A DNA stretch of 64,000 nucleotides from Bugula neritina (lineage: Eukaryota > Bryozoa > Gymnolaemata > Cheilostomatida > Bugulidae). The position numbers and the translations under genes are program-made. This document shows, in pieces, positions 44,400 through 47,300 of the stretch. Position 1 is the stretch's first letter. The number at the start of each line of letters is the position of its first letter. Location of the stretch: NCBI GenBank assembly GCA_964035545.1, contig OZ037773.1:3548251-3612250 (forward strand). The letters run 5' to 3'. Below the pieces are notes generated by a model that worked only from the letters and a program-made list of their open reading frames with translations, ran no database searches and was not told where the DNA came from.

Positions 44400-47300
44400 A
44401 TGTCAAATATTAATAATACTGATGAAAAATCTCTTGAGGTATGTATAAAATGGTAACTCAATAGTTTGCTTTCGGCATTTTTCCCAAAAATAATGCATCT
44501 GTTTTTAACAAAAACCACAATTAATCTGCAAGTTATTTTTCTAAGAGTTTTATTCAATTACTTGAAAATGTTTAAAAACTGTAACTTTAAAAAAGTTTTT
44601 TAGTTACTTGCAATAATACAGTTGTTAATGATTACTTATGTTATATGATTGCACAACAATATTTTTTGCATTTATAGACATGATATTTTTATTTTGATAA
44701 TTATTTCCTACAACTTGAGGCCTGAATTTTTTGAAAATTAAGCAACTTTCAGTATTGTCAAATTAATTTTCTAAAAGTAAAATGGTACTTCTTTTTAAAG
44801 TTATATAATCAGAAAACAGGTTGAGAAGCTAACACAATAAAATAAACTTTTACAGCTTCAGATAGACAATGTTTCATTAACTTCATCTAGAAGTGGTGAA
44901 AGATCTCCACCTCCAGCGTACCAGGTTCGATTATAAGATTAGTAAATAACTTATACTAATTTAAATGTAATTTAAATCATCTAAAACTTTAGATGATTTG
45001 TAATTATAGTTGCATTTACATATCTCAATTTTATTACATCAACCATGTTGATAGGAGTTCTTGAGTTGTGGAATTTGTCATCAAAAGTCAAGCGAAACAC
45101 TAAAGGCCAAGCCTTTGCCCTGTGGACATATTTACTGTTTACCCTGTCTTAAGACATATTTCAATGATGATGAAAATGTGGTGGCTACAGATGATGTTAA
45201 AGTCTATATGGAAGAGAGGTGAATTGTCGTAGTCACGTTTTTTAATTTTAAAGCATATTTCAACAGAGAAATAAAACAAATTGAACTTTCTTGTTCTAGT
45301 TGCTACGCAATAATATATATATATATATATATATATATATATATATATATATATATATATATATATATATATATATATATGTATATAAATAAATATATAT
45401 ATATAGTGTATATATATAGTGTATATATACACTATATATATATATATATATATATATATATATATATAGTGTATATATATATATAGTGTATATATACACT
45501 ATATATATACACTATATATATATATATATATATATATATATATATATATATATATATATTAGAAGAAATAAAATGAGATTTGATTAATATAATGGCATTT
45601 ATTACTAGTAGTTTCGTACACAAAAACGATGTGCACTCGTCAGATAAATTTGCCACTATGATAGTGGCAAATTTATCTGACGAGTGCACATCGTTTTTGT
45701 GTACGAAACTACTAGTAATAAATGCCATTATATTAATCAAATCTCATTTTATTTCTTCTAATGTTTATGCTCTAGATTTATTTCTATAGAGCACTCTAGT
45801 AACGTTTTATAAACACTCATTTTACTATATATATATTTATATATATATATATATATATATATATATATATATATATATATATATATATATATATATATAT
45901 ATAATTGTAAATTTTCTAGATTCACTCCTGATTTGTTACTGGGCTCTTCTGCAAACAACATTATAGAAAGTAAAAAAAATACAGCAGTTAATAACTTAGC
46001 CCAGTTCTGTAGTATCTGCACACAAAAAGAGGCTCTTCTAGTGTCCGCCGTTAGTCACTGTGAAATATGTGAGAAATACTACTGCTATAAGCATCAGCAG
46101 GTATTAAATATATATTTTTGATTTATACATTATCTCAACTATTATTGATCGGCCCGAGTCTAACTTTCAATATATTCTATTTTTAGTCTGTTATTTTGCT
46201 GTTGGTGTGTTGTAATCATTTAGGTAGTGTCTATAAATATTAGCCAATATACTTGAAGTCTTATTTTATTTTCGAATCGGAAATGGAAATTCTGTGAAAC
46301 ATATTTTTTCTAAGTTTTGACATATCTTTAAATTTATAAAACTTTGTTTAGTAATTGCGATTGTATCTCAAATAAATTAGACTCCATATTTTAGTCACAT
46401 GACGATTTAATGAATCATCCGGCAGTGACTCTTGGCGTAAGTCGACCAATCAAAATGAAGACTGAAGAGAAGCAGGGGGAGACCTGTGCCAAGCACGCTG
46501 GACATGCACTTGTTATGGCCTGTAAAACCTGCTACAACTTGCTCTGTGCCAAGTGTGTTGATGCAAATCTAAAATGTCAAATTAAAGGTGAATCAGTTTT
46601 ACTATATATTACTTATATGTGTGTTTGTGCTACAAAATGGTATCTTGAATCGGATTAAATCTGCTTGACTCTGAAAACTTGAATCCATTTCTCTGTAACA
46701 TTTTTTGAAATTAGTGCAGTTTTAAATTTACTCAGCTTAACAGTGATCTGTTTCAACTGCTCATTAGTTACCTTAAGTTAGTATAATGATAGAGTAAGGT
46801 CATAGTCGTGAGACAACAATTCCTAAAGTTCACAGCGTTCTTAATATAAACACTTGAGTTGGTTGCCACCTACAATTTATATAAAGTTTAGATGTCATTG
46901 CGTAAAGATGTGGTCAGCAGAAATTATATTCCATAAAATGTGAGGGTAGAATGGCGCTGTGAACATAGAGTTAAGTGATAGTTTATTGATATTTATTTTA
47001 GTAACTTTTGGCACGGAGTTATGAAAACCCTACTGAAACCTGAATCTGTATTGCTATTTACAGTAGCATACTTTGGTCTCATGTAAATTGCTGATGTTAG
47101 CAGGTTCCAGTCACGACATTGCTTCTATAGACGCTATAGCAAGCAACCTTGGTGTGACGCTGATGTCACTGAAACGTGAGCTACAAGAGTATGTGGCTAG
47201 AGTGGGCTCACTGTCGACTAGATGTAGTAATGCACTCGGTCAGTTTGACACTGAAACTGATGATGTCATCACTTTGGTGCAGCAGGCCAAACACGAGCAG

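Follow-up and report, generated by a model that had tools for sequence, protein, structure and literature searches.

How does a palindrome carrying a hammerhead motif on each strand come to lie in an intron of a host gene, and what would its ribozymes do there? The question is raised by a 64,000-nt stretch of the Bugula neritina genome (GenBank assembly GCA_964035545.1, contig OZ037773.1, positions 3,548,251 to 3,612,250, forward strand), hereafter the window, in which the palindrome interrupts a TRIM-like gene. The palindrome is a solo head-to-head insertion of two pseudo-long terminal repeats (pseudo-LTRs) of a hammerhead-bearing Penelope-like element (PLE). One of its outer ends has a tail and the other has none, and almost every pair of this kind that we sampled in the genome shows the same one-of-each pattern. 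We consider it likely that such pairs arise by two-ended PLE insertion at a (TA)n break, with reverse transcription starting at two internal places on the RNA and the resulting cDNAs being end-joined.

The inverted repeat comprises positions 45552-45659 and 45661-45768 (108 nt, 98% identity), separated by a 1-nt spacer at 45660 that marks the arm junction. Its perfect arms, 102 nt each, are 45558-45659 and 45661-45762; the two mismatches, arm nt 103 and 105, lie just outside them. Arm coordinate 1 is 45661 on the + strand and 45659 on the - strand. The left arm is a pseudo-LTR piece with its sense on the - strand, and the right arm is the identical piece with its sense on the + strand. The outer end of the left arm is of the tail-less type, TTCTTCTAAT being joined directly to TA repeats. 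The right arm continues on the + strand into a 63-nt tail (45763-45825), whose outer end CATTTTAC is joined to TA repeats as well. The total insertion measures 268 bp. Long TA arrays border it on both sides, a TA-rich one on the left (45314-45557), inferred to be the target, and another on the right (45826-45903). The initial annotation of this DNA had described a one-base-spacer palindrome with 102-nt arms and had related it to PLE terminal repeats, and our analysis agrees on both points; the tail and the TA arrays are additions to it.

We then inspected where the arms end across the genome. A similarity search that favours complete arms, and under-samples ends lying further in, provided loci with 45 arms, after removal of one match that ended short of arm nt 95. 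A script classified 22 of them as tailed, 16 as tail-less, six as other and one as continuing into the 5' untranslated region (UTR). By eye, the six others comprised four tailed arms, one tail-less arm and one breaking off within the tail (L020). With these five rows reclassified, 43 of the 45 arms end at two places, arm coordinate ~102 (tail-less) or ~165 (tailed). A more TA-like stretch lies inside the arm and none of the 45 ends there, which suggests that the end sites are not selected by their match to the (TA)n target. A scan of the genome with end patterns, which contain TA repeats by construction, found 132 tail-less and 140 tailed sites, and reversed controls gave 0. The sample analysed consists of 100 tail-less and 100 tailed sites from these. 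Its tailed sites are exact matches up to C7:6.15 Mb, and its tail-less sites are exact matches genome-wide and one-mismatch matches up to C3:18.76 Mb.

Among these 200 listed ends, 57 outward pairs (family 1) were formed within a pairing distance of 5 kb. Thirty have the order none/tail, 26 have the order tail/none, one is tail/tail (L064), and none/none does not occur. Label shuffling gives a mean of 28.7 mixed pairs, and 56 was never reached in 20000 trials. The pair in the window, tail-less on the left and tailed on the right, also has one end of each type; it lies on C9, outside the 57, the tailed list stopping on C7. Twenty-five of the 57 pairs are near-perfect short palindromes like that of the window, so that a head-to-head pair reduced to its terminal repeats, which had been thought unusual, is a recurrent form in this genome. 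The ribozyme core is kept in both arms of 40 pairs. Around unpaired ends, 24 of 86 stretches were fetched. Judged by alignment extent, four of them (L091, L101, L105, and L109) hold further tail/no-tail pairs, which stand outside the main count; the others are apparently single-ended, cut by the fetched range, or have a partner with no recognisable end. At L108 and L111 (C9), two tail-less ends lie in the same orientation ~105-120 nt apart, an arrangement that the two-ended model does not explain.

A second PLE family of the same genome, found via a neighbouring open reading frame (ORF), has two end types of its own. With all 98 tail-less ends and 100 of the 151 tailed ends listed, pairing within 6 kb yields 36 outward pairs (also 36 at 5 kb), of which 33 are mixed, two are tail/tail, and one is none/none. 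Shuffling gives a mean of 18.2 mixed pairs, and 0 of 20000 trials reach the observed count. This family (L013-L014, L114-L123) is abundant, has head-to-head pairs, and abuts first-family insertions in shared TA arrays (L013, L014). It contains CTGAAGA...GAAA, but the first helix II pair fails by eye, and we do not claim it as a second hammerhead family.

The arms of a pair appear to share their source. The variant at site 92 is identical within the pair in 44 of 44 pairs, the overall count being 69 T and 29 C. Such identity would also be expected if the nucleic acid of the element folded back and was copied on itself, as proposed with an antisense RNA template for the Penelope elements of Adineta vaga and argued for in the part of that account considered here (PMC3846280). 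Fold-back would likewise give palindromes at head-to-head junctions. However, self-priming predicts equal outer ends, and in 56 of the 57 pairs the ends are unequal, differing by 63 nt. It also predicts overlapping arms, whereas in nine of the 56 mixed pairs the arms share no sequence, which refutes it for those nine. We therefore regard self-priming as improbable, though it survives better than any other alternative.

The inner ends and junctions were examined in the 56 mixed pairs (112 arms; L064, being tail/tail, was excluded). For L033, L066, L073, and L079, the inner ends called automatically had to be corrected after visual inspection, and the junction counts use the corrected values. 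The inner end lies at coordinate 0-10 in the tail-less arm of 32 pairs and in the tailed arm of 22. It lies beyond -30, in the body of the element, in 15 tail-less and 16 tailed arms, and in 39 pairs neither arm extends that far. Only five of the 112 arms end between -100 and -11. Thirty-two junctions have a computed overlap of 1-4 nt, 11 have a filler of 2-13 nt, and two are exact; the remaining 11 comprise eight longer computed overlaps, four of which are the corrected pairs, and three running past the reference. At L084 (C6:11011964-11013057), the junction filler repeats sequence of the neighbouring arm, as templated end joining would give. As the pairs range in size from 119 to 2457 bp and short overlaps occur at their junctions, a short palindrome could also be what is left of a longer inverted-repeat copy that lost its middle after insertion by recombination or repair. 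The inner ends of both sides cluster at the hammerhead edge, which random deletions would have no reason to favour, and apparently single-ended copies end at the same place (L089, L100, L110). A deletion product is accordingly a poor candidate, poorer than self-priming.

No arm of the 112 ends at 54-62, around the cut site of the hammerhead, and 55 of the 56 tail-less arms and 44 of the 56 tailed ones read through it. A hammerhead-cut RNA was rejected as template on the former count; at this site, the RNA copied into the insertion was still uncleaved by the hammerhead. We also considered whether stops of tailed arms at 95-132 reflect collision of the two reverse transcriptases on one RNA, and dropped this reading: some tail-less arms also stop early, and early termination covers both.

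The equal sources of the arms, their unequal ends, the non-obligatory overlap between them, and the short overlaps at junctions fit two starts of reverse transcription at two fixed RNA sites, one for each DNA end. In the two-ended insertion that we favour, an endonuclease of the element would open a (TA)n site on both strands. Both DNA 3' ends would then prime inside the element RNA, one at the distal site (~165), which yields the tail, and the other at the proximal site (~102). The basis of this step is the one-of-each end pattern. Each cDNA would be extended towards the RNA 5' end, often stopping at 0-10, the 5' edge of the hammerhead; such a stop would most simply correspond to the 5' end of the RNA. 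The two cDNA 3' ends would finally be joined by end repair, mostly with short microhomology as seen at the junctions. Where both cDNAs stop at the hammerhead edge, a palindrome would be the product. A start in the 5'-most pseudo-LTR of the transcript would run off at this edge and give a mini-insertion, and a start in a downstream pseudo-LTR would lead to copying of the body. Whether PLE integration is obligately two-sided, each DNA end of a break taking one of the two RNA starts as if an asymmetric enzyme-RNA dimer were at work, we put at even chances.

Several points weigh against two-ended insertion. The mechanism is deduced from genomic sequence, and the position of the RNA 5' end at the edge of the hammerhead from the cDNA stops; visual inspection found no TATA box at the usual distance. 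The (TA)n targets mask any target-site duplication, and some of the short junction overlaps may be due to chance. The arms overlap in 47 of the 56 mixed pairs, which requires that one template be copied twice or that two RNAs come from the same source, and in some pairs they differ, at site 36 (L037), site 9 (L060), and scattered other sites, with up to seven differences in a long pair. The preference of the 45-arm set for complete arms leaves outer ends lying further in under-sampled. The one-of-each pattern has exceptions (L064 in family 1, three of 36 pairs in family 2), neighbouring ends that are not outward pairs number six in family 1 and ten in family 2, and apparently single-ended insertions occur (e.g. 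L100, L103, L110). The structural match of the encoded protein to telomerase, described below, is partial, viral RNA polymerases and other reverse transcriptases scoring close behind, and the putative endonuclease domain is assigned by its conserved motif residues. In addition, the start sites used in vitro by a lizard PLE did not differ between the top and the bottom strand, according to the part of the study considered (PMC11167929), so that strand identity does not explain the one-of-each rule.

We then asked what the hammerhead in the window would do. It had been annotated on both strands, and its listed parts, CTGACGA, a 7-bp helix II, GAAA, a 3-bp helix III, GUA, and helix I, were indeed found in each arm. 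In arm coordinates, CTGACGA occupies 17-23, helix II is formed by 24-30 and 38-44, GAA follows at 45-47, helix III is formed by 48-50 and 54-56, and GUA lies at 55-57, with cleavage predicted between 57 and 58. Helix I is formed by pairing of 1-8 and 11-16 with 58-71 (14 bp with a 2-nt bulge). The conserved core nucleotides, three helices, and NUH triplet of a type I hammerhead are all present, every pair having been checked. The motif (arm nt 1-71) thus covers 45661-45731 on the + strand, with predicted cleavage at 45717|45718 that agrees with the 5' end of 45718 forecast earlier, and 45589-45659 on the - strand, with predicted cleavage at 45603|45602. The covariance model suggested as a check, Rfam Hammerhead_1 (RF00163), matches both strands (45671-45723 + and 45597-45649 -; 28.2 bits, E 3.6e-5 in a 261-base search). 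The score falls short of the curated gathering level of 34 bits, at which no match to RF00163 is listed for the window. This cut-off is a filing threshold and not a biochemical one, and we speak of a hammerhead motif, not of a filed Rfam member. A scan of the whole genome with RF00163 gave no match, yet its controls gave none either, so it is uninformative. An exact search of the genome for the core pattern gives 183 occurrences, and its reversed control gives 0, which establishes the motif as a real repeat instead of a chance reading and supplies the further copies that the initial annotation had proposed to look for.

Folding predictions differ between a single arm and the palindrome. For a single arm, the ribozyme fold (-16.6 kcal/mol) is near the minimum free energy (-18.3 kcal/mol); helix II and the outer helix I form, and helix III has pair probabilities of ~0.05. 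The palindrome RNA is predicted to be one hairpin of 106 bp (-165.6 kcal/mol). Enforcing the ribozyme fold costs 88-95 kcal/mol relative to the hairpin at six transcript ends (arm nt 73 to 103), and all pair probabilities of the ribozyme within the palindrome are below 1e-14. Whichever strand is transcribed, the antisense arm precedes the sense arm. By these calculations, pairing with the complementary arm probably silences the ribozyme in the palindrome. The initial annotation had expected a cleaving RNA from either direction of transcription and possible cutting of the TRIM pre-mRNA. The energetics do not bear out the former at any of the six ends, and with the antisense arm made first and the hairpin favoured, cleavage of the TRIM pre-mRNA by the window copy is improbable for either direction of transcription. 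A working bidirectional device against this pre-mRNA could draw on the complete hammerhead core of both strands. The right arm is, however, 100% identical to two other arms in the genome, as for a young dispersed insertion and not for a conserved function. Such a device is very unlikely, and a regulatory ribozyme of the TRIM gene was rejected given the hairpin energetics and the many genomic copies. Matches of the palindrome to the microRNA precursors MIR6274 and MIR169_8 are below their cut-offs and were taken as long-hairpin artefacts.

The longer copies of the family encode a 706-aa ORF. Pfam and PDB sequence searches with it gave no usable match. Its AlphaFold2 model has a pLDDT of 88.8. 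By E-value, Foldseek ranks telomerase TERT first (3.9e-9, TM 0.28-0.33), and the reverse transcriptase region 53-476 is covered by structural matches; the predicted fold is thus that of a telomerase-like reverse transcriptase, as a PLE should have. In the C-terminal part, Y585, A587, Y600, G602, R611, H615, and E670 are invariant in 39 sequences, and we read them as the motif of a putative GIY-YIG endonuclease domain. Other PLE features are pseudo-LTRs in both tandem and inverted arrangement, a tail delimited by the two genomic end types of the 43 arms, from which the start sites of reverse transcription would follow, and AT-rich targets, with TA arrays flanking the window copy and adjoining most of the ends listed. 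In a tandem copy (L112), the 63-nt tail stretch falls in the 5' UTR, and the ATG of the ORF is at arm coordinate 212. Retrozymes have directly repeated hammerheads. Here, the hammerheads are inverted and the longer copies encode a protein, so the element is not a non-coding, non-autonomous retrozyme. If the terminal inverted repeats of a DNA transposon or MITE-like element contained a hammerhead by chance, such an element could account for inverted ends around internal regions of varied length; the unequal ends, the tandem direct and apparently single-ended copies, and the bodies attached to these ends, which code for a protein with a reverse transcriptase fold, make it a highly improbable alternative. 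Chimeric reads can produce perfect palindromes, but an assembly artefact is scarcely credible for 57 pairs with asymmetric ends at different places, few-base arm differences in some, and no two family 1 copies seen sharing both flanks (the listed flank matches come from adjacent copies or, it seems, from dispersed repeats of other kinds).

Relatives of the PLE were searched for in other contigs. None was found in viral contigs, and one was found in genome contigs (L113, JAAEPJ010000379.1), 48% identical in protein. It contains a head-to-head inverted repeat (1519 nt, 92%), and the contig end carries CTGACGAGTGCGTAAGCACGAAACTC, with the same core and a different helix II. Rfam gave no match on this contig, the motif being interrupted by the contig end. 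The contig is labelled as a bacterial metagenome-assembled genome and is likely eukaryotic contamination.

In the window, the insertion lies between two frames of a + strand TRIM-like gene, in line with its earlier placement in a TRIM intron. The RING finger frame is upstream (45055-45219, a Pfam match above the cut-off), and a weak B-box frame is downstream (46395-46655, 19.2 bits against a Pfam cut-off of 24.1). Upstream of this gene, frames at 39781-41663 on the - strand read as calmodulin by eye. An LTR-retrotransposon-like stretch at 18869-23407 on the + strand has an odd order of gag, glycoprotein-like, and protease parts. In its frame 19790-22924, a gag match is followed by a weak viral fusion glycoprotein match (PF24664, 26.2 bits; cut-off 27), while an aspartyl protease match lies in the next frame. 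Minisatellite-like arrays at 51666-52121 and 58029-58649 retain long open frames.

PLEs are already known to carry hammerheads, inverted pseudo-LTRs, and tails, and their palindromic junctions are not new either. Cervera and De la Pena reportedly described type I hammerheads in PLEs in 2014, and the Bugula motif is likewise of type I and in a PLE. In LINE-1 elements, 5' inversion by twin priming occurs when the second DNA end primes on the RNA and gives an inverted piece. Two-ended insertion in Bugula would resemble it in this respect, but both Bugula starts would have fixed internal positions, and most arms show palindromic overlap. Adineta vaga PLEs share with the Bugula element inverted pseudo-LTRs and a tail, termed optional there and 31 bp long in the example; the Bugula element differs in its hammerhead, its 63-nt tail, and its near-strict tail/no-tail rule, and the passages of that account covered here contain no count of tailed and tail-less partners and no mention of a hammerhead (PMC3846280). 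For PAc, a Poseidon PLE of Anolis carolinensis, the passages considered report that both DNA strands are cut and extended in vitro, that reverse transcription starts at two adjacent internal sites that define a tail, and that insertion does not need hammerhead cleavage, the hammerhead cleaving only with protein present (PMC11167929). The Bugula element would share the two adjacent starts giving a tail, the extension of both strands, and the dispensability of cleavage. In contrast, PAc starts inside its ORF with no strand difference, whereas the Bugula ends lie upstream of the ATG and the pairs use one of each. Animal retrozymes also have a type I hammerhead in a repeated element and, in the part of the source considered, are non-autonomous and expressed as small circular RNAs (PMC7229834); the Bugula element differs from them in its inverted ribozymes and its 706-aa ORF.

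The tail/no-tail pairing rule was not found in the published literature searched, with preprints and most subscription papers outside its scope. The Bugula genome presents a hammerhead that is abundant and yet probably silent in many copies, its own complement being fused on. How PLEs insert is unsettled, self-priming being argued for in one paper and both-strand extension being seen in vitro in another. The dozens of two-ended insertions in this genome discriminate between the two by their ends and junctions, and the tail/no-tail rule offers a direct test for any PLE-bearing genome and for a purified system.
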